Shown here piece by piece: positions 29,072-34,827 of a DNA stretch of 64,000 nucleotides (position 1 is the first letter of the stretch; each line of letters starts with the position of its first letter). Under the pieces are notes generated by a model. It was not told the DNA's origin, ran no database searches, and was given only the letters and a program-made list of their open reading frames with translations. The DNA comes from Acidobacteriaceae bacterium (GTDB lineage Bacteria; Acidobacteriota; Terriglobia; Terriglobales; Acidobacteriaceae): contig JAOAPC010000022.1 of the NCBI GenBank assembly GCA_025462735.1, positions 62,001 through 126,000 on the forward strand, in the 5' to 3' direction. A program made the translations under genes and the position numbers.

Positions 29072-29541
29072 AGTTATTAAGGCCGCCGTGAAGGACGCAA
29101 ATACTTAGTCTGTCAAGCATATCCCGGTGCGGCTTACAACTTTAATGACGGAAGGTCAGCATCTGGTAGCCACTGGCCAACCGGGGTGTCCTAAACAACA
29201 CGAGTGTCTCAACTATGAATCGATGAATATCCGGCTTAGCATCCTTAGGCTATGTCGAACGAATGTAGCGACGTGCGTCCCCGTCCGTCCTTGCTTGAAT
29301 GCACATATTCTGCGAACCACAGACCGTGTGGGTCGGCCTGCCCTGAGCCAAGTCGAAGGGACATTCTTGTCCGACGATTTTGATCCTGTCGGACGCAACC
29401 GTGGTAGAGCGGCCATTCATGGCCGCGCTCGATCGACAACTCGAAGAAGCGAGCTTGCTCGAAAAGGGAAGTCGGGCCGAGTTATACTCCACGCGAAAAG
29501 ATAGGCCGCCCGCCTGATGTATTTTGAAGGGGAGAGTCTCC
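29072..29541. repeat. 470-base intergenic region with a nested repeat
   Basis: No gene is credible. At 29326-29375 the GTGTGGGTCGG...ACATTCTTGTCCGAC repeat is interrupted by a 24-base insert that begins CCTGCCCTGAGCCAAGTCGA. The uninterrupted repeat occurs at 21913 and 22356. The rest shows nothing recognisable apart from the Shine-Dalgarno of the antiporter gene. Confidence 0.65.
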
Positions 29542-31043
29542 ATGCAGGCAAATATTCATGCGCTCGAGATCGTCTTCCTGCTTCTGCTGCTGTTCGTCGT
29601 GATATTCGGTGTCCTGGCAAAAAAGTTGAAGACTCCGTATCCGATTGTTCTGGTCATTGGCGGATTGCTGCTCAGCTTTGTCCCAGGGATCCCCAGGATC
29701 AATCTGAATCCGGATGTGGTCTTTTTTGTGATCTTGCCGCCACTGCTTTACAGCGCGGCTTGGCTCACCTCTTGGCGTGAATTTTCCTACAATCTGGTCA
29801 GCATTTTGTTTCTGGCATTTGGTCTGGTTACGTTCACCGTACTTGGCGTGACCGCCGCCGGCCACTGGTTTCTCGCTGGTTTCGACTGGCGGGTTGGGTT
29901 GGTGCTCGGGGCCGTGGTGGCGCCGACCGATGCCATTGCCGCCACCTCCATCGCCAAGCGCATCGGATTGCCCAAACGGATTGTGGACATTCTGGAAGGC
30001 GAAAGCTTGATCAACGATGCTACCGCCTTGCTTGCGCTCGAATTCGGGATCGCGTTGCTGGTTGGCCGCGAGACCCCGACTTTCACATTCGGGCTATTGC
30101 GTCTGTCTTACCTGGTCGCGGTGGGCATTCTGGTCGGACTGGTGATCGGCGAGATCGTACACTTTGTCGAACATCGGGTCGACGACGGTCCAATCGAGAT
30201 TGCGCTTAGTATTCTCACGCCCTACGTTGCCTATCTGACCGCCGAGGGCATTCATGCTTCGGGCGTGCTGGCGGTAGTCGCATGTGGACTGTATCTCAGT
30301 CGCAAGAGCTCGCATTTCTTTTCGCCCGGTGTGCGCCTGCAAGTCTGGGCGGTGTGGGAATCGCTGACCTTTATTCTCAATGGCCTGGTATTTGTACTAA
30401 TCGGACTGCAGCTTCCCTACGTGCTTGGGGCCATTCGCGACCATAATCTTGGAAGATTAGTCGTGTATGGCGCGGTGTTCAGTGCATTTCTTATCCTCCT
30501 GCGCTTGACTGGATGTATCCCGGCGCGTACGTCGCATACCTCATCCGCAGGCGTATTCTTCATCAGAACGAGCCCCTGCCTGGGTCGAAGCGGCTATTCG
30601 TTTTGGGTTGGACAGGCATGCGGGGCGTCATCTCGTTGGCTGCCGCCATCGCTTTGCCACAAACCTTTGCGGACGGTACTCCGTTTGTGCAACGGAATAT
30701 GATTGTTTTTCTCGCCTTCACCGTCATACTGGTTACGCTTGTGCTTCAGGGTCTTACCTTGCCGCCACTCATTCGCGGGCTGGGCCTTGCCGGTGGCACT
30801 CTGCAACATCCTGAGGAGAGAGATGCGAGGCGCGCCATTCTGGAAGCAGCGCTCAACTATCTCAACCAAGTTCGCGAGCAGGCGAAGCCTGAACTCGTCG
30901 GAGTGTACGACGACCTTTCGCACCACTATCGCTCCCGCTTGGCGACTTTGCAGGAAGAACAGGGTCAAACTAAAGCCGCATCTGGCGAATTGGGCAGTTC
31001 TCGAAAACAAATAGCGGTAGATAAGGGCGTCCATCGCCCTTGA
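29542..31043 (+). pseudogene. CPA1-type Na+/H+ antiporter gene split by a one-base deletion
   Basis: The first part (29542 to about 30510) encodes about ten membrane helices of a NhaP-type cation/proton antiporter, with VAPTDAIAATSIAKRIGLP and LEGESLINDATALL, the family's ion-site motifs. At CGCTTGACTGGATGTATCCC (30505-30524) the frame is lost. One extra base there would continue into WMYPGAYVAYLIRRR, GWTGMRGVISLAAAIALP and the C-terminal helices in the next frame, ending at 31043. As written the first frame runs on with a scrambled tail to 30702. The start ATG 29542 has GGGGAG upstream. Either a real inactivating deletion or an assembly error. Confidence 0.75.
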
Positions 31044-31164: not shown

Positions 31165-31193
31165 TTGACATCCCATTCGCGTAACTGTAAGGT
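31165..31193 (+). promoter_or_regulatory. Predicted sigma-70-type promoter of the SRPBCC/ArsR island
   Basis: TTGACA at 31165-31170, a 17-base spacer, then TAAGGT at 31188-31193 as a -10 box. It points at the first SRPBCC gene (31261), and its -10 box overlaps the palindrome at 31191. The perfect -35 box and ideal spacing make this the best promoter seen in the window. Confidence 0.6.
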
Positions 31194-31211
31194 TACACAT
31201 TATGCGTCACC
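31191..31211. promoter_or_regulatory. Candidate ArsR operator, copy 1
   Basis: A 21-base imperfect palindrome with the pattern GGTnACnCATnATGnGTnACC, 15 of whose positions are symmetric around a central T. It overlaps the -10 box of the promoter at 31165. It contains an ATG opening a 14-codon frame whose first five residues (MRHRS) equal those of the ArsR protein. Confidence 0.55.
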
Positions 31212-31260
31212 GATCAGTTACATATTTCGTTTCGAACAGCTACTAAGGAGAAATCGCATT

Positions 31261-31701
31261 ATGGCGGATATTCTGCATAGAGTCGGAATCAAGTCCTCCC
31301 CGGAGGAAGTTTATAAGGCATTGACCACGCGCGAAGGCCTTGCCGCCTGGTGGACGAACAACACCCAAGGCGAAAGCAAAGTCGGCGGAGTGCTCCAATT
31401 CCGCTTTGGCGCCGGCGGTTTCGACATGAAGGTTCTTGAGCTTGATCCCGCCAAGCGCGTGCTATGGCAAGTGGTCGATGGGCCCAAAGAATGGATCGGA
31501 ACCAAGGTAAGTTGGGATCTCAGACAAGAAAACGATTATGCCATCGTCCTCTTTAAACACGAAGATTGGAAGGAGCCCGTGGAATTTATGCACCATTGCA
31601 GCACCAAGTGGGGGCTGTTTCTGATGAGTTTAAAGTCGCTTGTAGAAACCGGGAAAGGTGCACCCGACCCTAACGACGTCAAGATCGACAACTGGAACTA
31701 A
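31261..31701 (+). CDS. SRPBCC (AHSA1-like) domain protein 1
   Basis: A 146-residue START/Bet v1-fold protein of the AHSA1 type: an initial strand HRVGIKSSPEEVYKALTTRE, GLAAWWTNNTQG, KVLELDPAKRVLWQVVDG and a long C-terminal helix (GLFLMSLKSLVETGKG). The fold binds hydrophobic small molecules, and no catalytic residues are evident. The ATG at 31261 is preceded by AAGGAG (spacing about 11), so the frame's extension to 31165 is not needed. First gene of the island and probably controlled by the adjacent ArsR. Confidence 0.8.
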   Translation: MADILHRVGIKSSPEEVYKALTTREGLAAWWTNNTQGESKVGGVLQFRFGAGGFDMKVLELDPAKRVLWQVVDGPKEWIGTKVSWDLRQENDYAIVLFKHEDWKEPVEFMHHCSTKWGLFLMSLKSLVETGKGAPDPNDVKIDNWN

Positions 31702-31774
31702 GCACCACCGACGACGGTCTTGAGCTTTGCGGGTGGCCCACATCTCGGTTTGAAGTAAATTTGAAGTCTAAAAA

Positions 31775-31795
31775 GGTTACACATTATGCGTCACC
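31775..31795. promoter_or_regulatory. Candidate ArsR operator, copy 2, overlapping the arsR start codon
   Basis: The same 21 bases as copy 1 (GGTTACACATTATGCGTCAC plus C). The similarity continues with a few mismatches for about 14 bases downstream. TTGAAG at 31750-31755 and AAAGGT at 31772-31777 (16-base spacer) form a plausible promoter. That places the transcription start about one or two bases before the ATG at 31786, suggesting a leaderless message. Confidence 0.55.
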
Positions 31796-32214
31796 GTTCA
31801 CTTGCACATTCCGGCTCCGGTCCACGAGGGGCGCCAGCGCGAGACGCCGCCTTTAACGCTCTGGCCGATCCCACACGCCGCGCCGTGCTCGATCTGCTGC
31901 GCGCGGGAACTCGTCCGGCCGGAGAAATTGCGCGCGCGTTTCCGATTTCGCGGCCCGCGATTTCGAAGCACCTCAAAATCCTGCGCCGCGCACATTTAGT
32001 GGACGAGCACAGGGAAGGACGGCACCGTTTTTATCAGCTCAATCCCGAGCCCCTGAAGTCGGTCGATTCGTGGCTGGAAGAGTATCGCCGCTTCTGGACC
32101 GCGAGTCTGGAAAATCTGAAATCGTTTGTCGAGTCCGAATACGAAAAAGAAATTAGTGCCAAAGACTTGTCTGAAAATAAAACTCATATTCACCCAAGGA
32201 GAAAAGACTCATGA
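31786..32214 (+). CDS. ArsR-family transcriptional regulator
   Basis: A 142-residue winged-helix repressor. The helix-turn-helix core is clear: ALADPTRRAVLDLLRAG, PAGEIARAFPISRPAISKHL (recognition helix) and REGRHRFYQLNP (wing). No metal-binding Cys motif of the ArsR/SmtB sensors is present, as in the non-metal ArsR group often found next to SRPBCC genes. The ATG sits inside a palindrome, so autoregulation is expected. Its stop overlaps the next gene (ATGA). Confidence 0.88.
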   Translation: MRHRSLAHSGSGPRGAPARDAAFNALADPTRRAVLDLLRAGTRPAGEIARAFPISRPAISKHLKILRRAHLVDEHREGRHRFYQLNPEPLKSVDSWLEEYRRFWTASLENLKSFVESEYEKEISAKDLSENKTHIHPRRKDS

Positions 32215-32768: not shown

Positions 32769-33272
32769 ATGACGCAGACAATGCCTACAACTCCTAGCAC
32801 TCAAGAGCAAAAGAAAGACAACGACAGCGTCGTTACGGAAATATTCATCTCCGCCCCGCGCGAGCGCGTGTTCAAAGCTCTGGTCGATCGCGAACAGGCG
32901 CTCAAGTGGGGTGACGGTCCAGCATTCAAACTGACCGAATGGGAGATGGATGCACGTGTCGGCGGGAAATGGTCGTTCGTTTCAAAACCGCGCGGCCCCG
33001 GCAAGGAGAACGCCAGAGAAATTGGGCATCACGGCGAGGTTCTGAAATTGGAACCGCCTCGGCTGCTCGAGTACACGTGGTACGCCGAGTGGCATTCAAA
33101 TCAGTTGCAAGAGACCGTCGTTCGCTGGGATCTTTCCGTTGTTCCTGGCGGCACGCAAGTTAAAGTCACCCACAGCGGTCTGGCTCAAATGCCAGCCGAG
33201 CGCAAAGGATACGCCGGTGGCTGGCCCGGATTGCTGGCCGCCATTAAGCAAGCTGTTGAAAGCGGCAAGTAA
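32769..33272 (+). CDS. SRPBCC (AHSA1-like) domain protein 2
   Basis: A 167-residue SRPBCC-fold protein: VVTEIFISAPRERVFKALVD, WEMDARVGGKWSFVSKPRG, EVLKLEPPRLLEYTWYAEWH and LLAAIKQAVESGK. It is a paralogue of the genes at 33813 and 34309 (shared EIFI.APRERVF and VGGKW patterns) and more distant from the one at 31261. Located 54 bases after the exported protein. Function unknown beyond small-ligand binding. Confidence 0.78.
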   Translation: MTQTMPTTPSTQEQKKDNDSVVTEIFISAPRERVFKALVDREQALKWGDGPAFKLTEWEMDARVGGKWSFVSKPRGPGKENAREIGHHGEVLKLEPPRLLEYTWYAEWHSNQLQETVVRWDLSVVPGGTQVKVTHSGLAQMPAERKGYAGGWPGLLAAIKQAVESGK

Positions 33273-33371
33273 TGTGCCGTTGGTTATTGCAAAGGGGATG
33301 AGAGATTTATGTTGACGACTTACCACGACGCGACGTTTGAAGAAATAATTTCAATTCTTAAGGAGAGCCGT

Positions 33372-33734
33372 ATGTCTAATCCGTTTTGTCATGTCGAACT
33401 CAACACTAACGATGTCAAGAAAGCCAAAGATTTTTACGGAAAACTCTTTGACTGGAAACTCGAAGACATACCTTCACCCGGCGGCGGTTACACCATGATC
33501 GGCGTGGGAGAGGGAACTGGCGGCGGCCTGATGAAGAATCCCATTCCTGGCGCGCCTTCGTTCTGGCTCTCGTATGTCGCGGTTGACGACATCGAGGCCG
33601 CCACAAAAAAAGCCAAGTCGCTCGGGGCACAGGTCATGAAAGATGTCACGCCCGTCATGGATTACGGCTGGCTCAGCATCATCACTGATCCAACCGGCGC
33701 GTGTCTGGGCCTTTGGAAACCCAAGAAAGCTTAA
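33372..33734 (+). CDS. VOC-family (glyoxalase/bleomycin-resistance-like) protein
   Basis: A 120-residue single-domain VOC protein with two beta-alpha-beta-beta-beta units: FCHVELNTNDVKKAKDFYGK and SYVAVDDIEAATKKAKSLGA, ending DPTGACLGLWKP. VOC proteins bind a metal and act as glyoxalases, dioxygenases or drug-binding proteins. Which one this is cannot be read from sequence. The ATG at 33372 has AAGGAG upstream, which rules in favour of it over the frame's start at 33309. Confidence 0.83.
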   Translation: MSNPFCHVELNTNDVKKAKDFYGKLFDWKLEDIPSPGGGYTMIGVGEGTGGGLMKNPIPGAPSFWLSYVAVDDIEAATKKAKSLGAQVMKDVTPVMDYGWLSIITDPTGACLGLWKPKKA

Positions 33735-33812
33735 CTGCAATCTGGAGACAGCCGTGTAGGGGCGGTCGTCCACGCCCCACCAACTGAACTTATATTGAGA
33801 GGTCAAAATACA

Positions 33813-34307
33813 ATGGCAACAATGACTATCACTCCCACATCGCACATCACTCCCGACAACGATATTGTCACTTTAGAAATTTTCATCGCCGCTCCCCGCG
33901 AGCGCATCTTCCAAGCCATTACCGATCCCGAGCAAGCCGCTCAATGGTGGGGCCGCAAAGACCAGTACTACTTCAACCACTTCAACATGGACGTACGCGT
34001 CGGCGGAAAATGGTCCACAACCGGTATGTCGCCAAAAAATGGCGCTCTCGCGGTCCACGGCGAATTTCTCGAAGTCGATCCTCCGCGCCGCCTTGCCTAC
34101 AGCTGGAGCTCGAGCTGGATGCCCGCGGTCACCAAAGTGCTCTGGGAGCTCGACTCTCAAAGCAACGGCACGCTGGTTCGACTCACGCACAGCGGATTCG
34201 CTGGCGACGCCAACCAAGTCCAGGGTCACAGCCATGGCTGGTCACTGCTCTTCACCTGGTTGCAAGCCTTCGCAGAAAAAGGCGAGCTCGGTGATTTCAG
34301 GAGCTGA
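33813..34307 (+). CDS. SRPBCC (AHSA1-like) domain protein 3
   Basis: A 164-residue SRPBCC protein: IVTLEIFIAAPRERIFQAIT, QAAQWWGRKDQYYFNHFNMD, VRVGGKWSTTG, EFLEVDPPRRLAYSWSSSW. The next gene is its close tandem paralogue, so a recent duplication is likely. ATG 33813 is chosen over the TTG six codons upstream because GAGAGG precedes it. Confidence 0.78.
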   Translation: MATMTITPTSHITPDNDIVTLEIFIAAPRERIFQAITDPEQAAQWWGRKDQYYFNHFNMDVRVGGKWSTTGMSPKNGALAVHGEFLEVDPPRRLAYSWSSSWMPAVTKVLWELDSQSNGTLVRLTHSGFAGDANQVQGHSHGWSLLFTWLQAFAEKGELGDFRS

Positions 34308-34308
34308 A

Positions 34309-34827
34309 TTGGCTACCGCAACTCTCACTACCGACAACGACGTGGTCCTGGCGGAGATCTTCATCGCAGCTCCGCCAGCCCGCGTGTTCGAAGCCATCAC
34401 TGACCCCAAGCAAGCTTCACAACGGTGGGGACAGAAAGGGATGTATCGGCTAACTTCGACGCAAGCCGATTTTCGCGTGGGCGGCAAGTACCGGAACGAA
34501 GGCGTGAGCCAAGATGGCAAGACTTTTAGCGTGGAAGGCGAGTATCTTGAAATCGATCCCCCACGTCTGCTCGTCCACACCTGGCTGTCGAGCTATTCCG
34601 GCTTTCAGAAAACTATCGTACGTTGGGAACTTGAGCCGCGCGACGTTCACGGTCTGCAACATCGAGGTCCTCATCGCGTTGGCACTGGCACCGTAGTGAA
34701 GATTCGCCACTCCGGATTCGCCGGCAATCTCGCCCAGGCCAAAGCTCACGGCGAGGGCTGGAAGCGTGTTTTGGGGTGGATGCAAGCCTTCGTGGAAAAG
34801 GCCGAGACTGTGGAGACTCGCGCGTAG
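34309..34827 (+). CDS. SRPBCC (AHSA1-like) domain protein 4
   Basis: A 172-residue SRPBCC protein, paralogue of the preceding gene (VLAEIFIAAPPARVFEAITD, ADFRVGGKYRNEG, EYLEIDPPRLLVHTWLSSY). The likely start is a TTG at 34309, one base after the previous stop, with AGGAG five bases before it inside the previous gene. A GTG at 34291 is the alternative. It carries a short insert (HGLQHRGPHRVG) not seen in its paralogue. Confidence 0.75.
   Translation: MATATLTTDNDVVLAEIFIAAPPARVFEAITDPKQASQRWGQKGMYRLTSTQADFRVGGKYRNEGVSQDGKTFSVEGEYLEIDPPRLLVHTWLSSYSGFQKTIVRWELEPRDVHGLQHRGPHRVGTGTVVKIRHSGFAGNLAQAKAHGEGWKRVLGWMQAFVEKAETVETRA

Follow-up and report, generated by a model that had tools for sequence, protein, structure and literature searches.

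A probable leaderless arsR promoter with a putative double operator, probably duplicated in part around an inserted SRPBCC gene in an Acidobacteriaceae bacterium

Introduction

In Mycobacterium tuberculosis, the ArsR-type autorepressor Rv2034 is co-expressed with the downstream gene Rv2035 (polyketide_cyc2), and its footprint, CCGTAAGT-N4-ACTTACGG, covers −30 to +3 of the Rv2034 gene itself, with GTAAGT-N4-ACTTAC over the start (PMC3338718). The locus described here resembles this system in combining a probable autorepressor with an SRPBCC-type partner gene, in its GTAA half-sites and in the size of the dyad (GTAACC-N4-GGTTAC); half-sites 4 nt apart across the regulator start were found in the orthologs and in one of the two copies present here (copy 1). 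However, a single dyad was reported for Rv2034, whereas the present promoter has two, of which the second falls within the coding sequence. Furthermore, the regulator is the first gene in M. tuberculosis, and leaderlessness is absent from that report (PMC3338718).

A mapped leaderless transcript is described for the autorepressed operon of the Mesorhizobium regulator NreA (CsoR/RcnR family), which has a dyad operator in its promoter (PMC12724321). NreA belongs to another protein family, responds to nickel and has its operator between −35 and −10, rather than across the start codon as here. E. coli 5′-uAUG messages begin with an AUG from which a short upstream ORF is read, ahead of a gene led by a Shine-Dalgarno sequence (PMC4965119). 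They resemble the layout proposed below for copy 1, but are linked neither to an ArsR operator nor to a displaced gene start. For Acidobacteria, a TANNNT motif situated about 12 bp ahead of the start was taken as leaderless, with an average of 13.3% in three genomes (PMC3160421); this is a genome-wide prediction, and the arsR promoter is not discussed in the accessible sections. Taken singly, ArsR genes under autorepression, leaderless operons with an autorepressor (NreA, PMC12724321) and 5′-AUG upstream ORFs are all known. Our literature search found nothing direct on ArsR together with SRPBCC. New, as far as these searches go, would be the combination of these elements, with an operator written into the first codons and a module taken over by an inserted gene.

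The window analyzed here comprises 64,000 nt of contig JAOAPC010000022.1 (GCA_025462735.1). A preliminary description had proposed twin ArsR operators, each overlapping a promoter, with a leaderless arsR message and control of an SRPBCC gene.

Results

An exact repeat on both sides of the SRPBCC gene

The 21-mer GGTTACACATTATGCGTCACC is found as exact copies at 31191 (copy 1) and 31775 (copy 2), just as first described, and the ATG of arsR indeed forms the center of the palindrome in copy 2. The exact repeat comprises 24 bp (31189-31212 and 31773-31796), followed by approximately 13 bp more of looser similarity. The degenerate palindrome with up to three mismatches has two sites in the window, i.e., both copies of the 21-mer, compared to 0.19 expected. 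The 4.36-Mb genome sequence, scanned with ≤3 mismatches, holds the two copies and two unrelated sites with three mismatches, and no third copy was found in the whole genome at ≤2 mismatches. Features of the region are listed in Table 1.

Table 1. Predicted features of the arsR region (coordinates within the window).
Feature	Position	Strand	Remarks
−35 box TTGACA of copy 1	31165..31170	+	6/6 match; TTGACA in 46/50 ortholog arrays
Left operator dyad GTAACTGTAAGGTTAC	31181..31196	.	arms 1 and 2, overlaps −10; GTAAC-N6-GTTAC spacing
−10 box TAAGGT of copy 1	31188..31193	+	17-nt spacer; 8 nt before upstream ATG
21-mer, copy 1	31191..31211	.	arms 2 and 3 of the array
14-codon upstream ORF MRHRSVTYFVSNSY*	31202..31246	+	apparent relic of ancestral arsR start; stop overlaps next ribosome-binding site
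Right operator dyad GTCACCGATCAGTTAC	31206..31221	.	arms 3 and 4, within upstream ORF; synonymous-site conservation in orthologs
Shine-Dalgarno AAGGAG of SRPBCC gene	31245..31250	+	duplex −8.2 kcal/mol, anti-SD assumed
SRPBCC / AHSA1 gene, 146 aa	31261..31701	+	Pfam AHSA1 3.5e-12
Intergenic tail	31702..31733	+	like DNA behind donor-like gene in L065; blastn 75% over 31261-31733
Degenerate −10 position AAAGGT of copy 2	31772..31777	+	AAAGG may be weak Shine-Dalgarno (−4.0 kcal/mol)
21-mer, copy 2	31775..31795	.	arms 2 and 3 kept, outer arms 1 and 4 degenerate; PWM 1.7 bits
arsR, repressor, 142 aa	31786..32214	+	Pfam HTH_5, HTH_20; ~50 orthologs
Next gene of conserved operon, 167 aa	32211..32714	+	no Pfam match; after arsR in several relatives
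Rest of cluster	32769..34827	+	AHSA1 32769, VOC/glyoxalase 33309, AHSA1 33795, AHSA1 ending 34827

Promoter geometry of arsR orthologs

Orthologs of the ArsR protein were looked for in relatives and among 300 family genomes, and the DNA was read at the start of each ortholog. About 50 orthologs from the same bacterial family were obtained; one genome is included twice (L036 and L052, identical arrays), a displaced array of genome G004 is taken in for L015, and all conservation counts represent non-independent events due to common ancestry. The orthologs share TTGACA, a spacer of 17 or 18 nt, TAnnGT and, 8-9 nt further, an ATG at a fixed position, which is followed by the codons for MR[HN]RSVTYS. 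The end of the −10 box is separated from the ATG by 8 nt in 42 orthologs and by 9 nt in eight. In the 42 orthologs with standard spacing, conservation is near 2 bits in the −35 box, the arms described below and the ATG; beyond 10 bp upstream of the −35 box, it drops to approximately 0.03-0.13 bits per position. No Shine-Dalgarno sequence of note was detected in the orthologs (−3.4 to +1.0 kcal/mol, compared to −8.2 kcal/mol for the SRPBCC gene); the anti-SD sequence was assumed for these values, since a search of the assembly did not reveal the 16S 3′ end. With a distance of 6-9 nt between −10 element and start codon taken as leaderless, the orthologs, at 8 or 9 nt, have the promoter geometry expected of leaderless genes (see also PMC3160421). 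Many strong leaderless TTGACA promoters were not seen in this genome, as only three strict matches were obtained versus one in the control.

The operator unit

Each ortholog promoter contains four arms, i.e., GTAAC-N6-GTTAC, a gap and G..AC-N6-GTTAC, which form two dyads of 16 bp. The N6 spacing is invariant for both dyads in 50/50 arrays, keeping in mind that array selection preferred N6 where a locus allowed more than one reading; under a stricter pattern, no locus had more than one candidate. The gap between the dyads, however, is variable (9 in 40 of the 50 arrays, 10 in eight, 12 and 17 in one each). Since the dyad spacing is invariant and the spacing inside the 21-mer varies among orthologs, the 21-mer was set aside as the operator unit proposed initially, and it probably represents the inner arms (2 and 3, with the gap) of two operators, not an operator itself. 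The invariant unit is the 16-bp dyad, which occurs twice per promoter. The sequences support the broader idea of ArsR-type operators overlapping a promoter.

In the orthologs, the two dyads flank the ATG, so that the right one falls within codons 2-7 of arsR. Coding arm 4 is read with the same codons throughout: Val6 is GTT in 49/49 and Tyr8 is TAT in 42/42 orthologs. Codon uniformity is 0.80 in the first codons versus 0.55 in the rest (p = 0.005), a comparison based on six early codons.

Full arrays were detected 64 times in 63 of 398 genomes of the family, compared to zero for the reversed-pattern control. Those with a listed ortholog are located at arsR, essentially one per genome. A wider regulon was also considered and rejected, given this family-wide distribution and the four exact GTAAC-N6-GTTAC sites in the genome, the same number as in the reversed control. 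In distant ArsR homologs (L017-L034), inspection by eye revealed −10-like boxes close to the start, only a few bases upstream of it. The dyads upstream of these genes are different, again by eye (e.g., TATTCC-N5-GGAATA, AACC-N4-GGTT), and a common operator was discarded for them.

Comparison of the two copies

In copy 1, all four arms and the −35 box are intact, and its score of 63.3 bits with the ortholog matrix comes close to the ortholog mean of 65.0 bits. The −10 box TAAGGT is weaker than most ortholog −10 boxes (mostly TATAGT, TATGGT, TACAGT). A strict sigma-70 scan returned no promoter anywhere in the region, and copy 1 is missed because TAAGGT matches only 3/6. The distance of 8 nt between −10 and ATG is again within the leaderless range of 6-9 nt. 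The in-frame ORF MRHRSVTYFVSNSY* from 31202 starts with MRHRSVTYF and corresponds to the ortholog starts, bearing out the suggestion that MRHRS in copy 1 derives from the arsR start.

In copy 2, the aligned −10 and −35 positions read AAAGGT and TTTGAA (best alternative −35: TTGAAG, spacer 16 nt). This copy lacks TTGACA as well as the first T of the −10 box, arm 1 and an intact arm 4, whereas the inner 24 bp are kept. The PWM score is 1.7 bits, with a full match in arms 2 and 3 and the gap, and failure in arms 1 and 4. The protein begins with MRHRSLAH, and the changes affect the three codons formerly occupied by arm 4. The ortholog-like upstream ORF at copy 1, together with the altered codons at copy 2, argues for copy 1 as the old start and copy 2 as a partial duplicate.

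The promoter boxes first predicted for both copies hold for copy 1 (TTGACA, 17-nt spacer, TAAGGT) but not for copy 2, and the two cannot be regarded as equivalent twin promoters. Judged by its sequence, copy 1 is the apparently complete ancestral promoter, operator and start of arsR, and copy 2 an apparent partial duplicate at arsR itself. Copy 1 also seems to be the strongest leaderless-type promoter of the region, with a predicted 5′ AUG which now opens the upstream ORF of 14 codons. The idea of a leaderless arsR message agrees with the geometry conserved in about 50 orthologs; for the present arsR at copy 2 it is doubtful, as the leaderless-type distance to the −10 position exists but AAAGGT is not TANNNT and the promoter is degraded.

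Alternatively, the 21-mer could be the operator after all, and both copies could be active promoters under ArsR control, with a leaderless arsR message from the second. The 21-mer is a palindrome and identical in both copies although the flanks of copy 2 have changed, the ATG is ideally placed for a leaderless start, and Rv2034 is able to bind a single half-site (PMC3338718). Nevertheless, we regard this model as quite unlikely in view of the variable gap between arms 2 and 3, as opposed to constant 16-bp dyads, and of the elements lost from copy 2. The identity of the inner 24 bp, despite changed neighboring bases in copy 2, may indicate a recent duplication or continued binding of ArsR to copy 2.

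Very unlikely, in our view, is that copy 1 is a mere relic, with the SRPBCC gene at this place by chance and no longer under ArsR. Copy 1 does keep a dead arsR start, and the SRPBCC gene is recent in the lineage; however, the four arms and the −35 box of copy 1 remained intact while copy 2 decayed, and the SRPBCC start is found 59 nt downstream, with a good Shine-Dalgarno sequence. Control of the SRPBCC gene by the intact copy 1 upstream, as suggested earlier, is likely.

Origin of the SRPBCC gene

No match to the SRPBCC gene was found in 36 sampled relatives. Its best relative in 399 genomes of the class (75% identity) belongs to another family of the class and is situated beside a different ArsR gene; the similarity runs 32 bp past the stop codon. 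A 178-aa ORF from TTG 31165 was rejected as a spurious upstream extension, as the AHSA1 match begins behind ATG 31261. A crude scan detected no terminator before arsR. Further upstream in the window (29524-31043), a Na+/H+ exchanger gene is seemingly split over two frames (ORFs 29524-30702 and 30513-31043), which suggests a frameshift or an assembly error near 30510.

The twins appear to have arisen by duplication around the inserted gene, and the simplest account would be insertion of the SRPBCC gene just inside arsR. The same end product would result if the arsR promoter had been duplicated to the front of a pre-existing SRPBCC gene (as copy 1), with no insertion into arsR, and two full arrays near one arsR in genome G004 are compatible with promoter duplication. 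On the other hand, arsR orthologs are located directly behind their promoter, the SRPBCC gene is missing in the sampled relatives, and donor-like DNA continues past its stop. Although the order of the DNA does not settle the mechanism, we consider such recruitment rather unlikely compared to insertion.

The G004 arrays, from the same genus, are 729 bp apart (L103 6244-7030, G004:C442), the second at arsR, and a DUF3224 gene (1.4e-35) is located between them. A run of N (L103 6322-6343) separates the first array from this gene, and a scaffolding artefact is possible.

The ArsR protein and its downstream cluster

The arsR product contains an ArsR-type winged-helix domain (HTH_5, 44.1 bits, cut-off 22; HTH_20, 51.5 bits, cut-off 27) and shows winged-helix sequence similarity to the ArsR/SmtB structures 3f6o, SrnR 7p6f and SmtB 1r1t (best 3e-17). 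SmtB and NmtR sense metals. In contrast to these sensors, the translation of 142 aa contains 0 Cys and, hence, no cysteine-based metal site. Membership in the ArsR family stands nevertheless, because non-metal ArsR proteins exist. In relatives without the SRPBCC gene, arsR and several downstream genes recur together. The VOC/glyoxalase ORF of this cluster more likely starts at 33372, behind AAGGAG, than at 33309.

Discussion

We consider it probable that the ancestral unit was an autorepressed leaderless arsR, that the SRPBCC gene was inserted, and that transcription now starts from copy 1 as an ArsR-repressed operon, whereas copy 2 has little activity as a promoter. The conserved arrays, the constant dyad spacing, the intact state of copy 1 as opposed to copy 2 and the lack of the SRPBCC gene in the sampled relatives are seen in the sequences themselves; binding of ArsR, the transcription start, how and in which direction the insertion took place, and transcription as an operon are inferred from them. 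In the ancestral state, arsR would have had a leaderless message from the arrangement TTGACA, 17-18 nt, TAnnGT, 8-9 nt, ATG, and two ArsR dimers on the two 16-bp dyads, one over the −10 box and one in codons 2-7, would have blocked RNA polymerase. A foreign SRPBCC gene with its own Shine-Dalgarno sequence and a short tail would then have entered immediately behind the arsR start, of which about 24-37 bp would have been duplicated. Copy 1 would be the original promoter with its double operator and would drive the SRPBCC gene, arsR and the downstream genes as one ArsR-repressed operon. Upon release of ArsR from copy 1, the message would start at or within two bases of AUG 31202; ribosomes could read the 14 codons of the upstream ORF and stop on the ribosome-binding site of the SRPBCC gene. 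arsR would be translated from the same message, and the Shine-Dalgarno sequence at its AUG is weak at best (−4.0 kcal/mol, anti-SD assumed). Copy 2 would supply this ATG, perhaps together with a weak ribosome-binding site and a weak ArsR contact.

More speculatively, and with considerable doubt on our side, the autorepressed leaderless module might serve as a landing place: an incoming gene takes the intact module, the 5′ AUG turns into an upstream ORF, and the regulator switches to Shine-Dalgarno-type initiation on the decayed copy. If true, the twin array of G004 would make such a takeover recurrent.

In many genera, repressor promoter, double operator and start codon share the same approximately 60 bp, and the first codons of the protein would thus be constrained by the operator; this makes the locus a testable and well-bounded case. 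Moreover, it offers a natural experiment, with one module intact before a new gene and one partly decayed at the regulator. A comparison of copy 1 with copy 2 would reveal the requirements of a leaderless gene that has become second in an operon.
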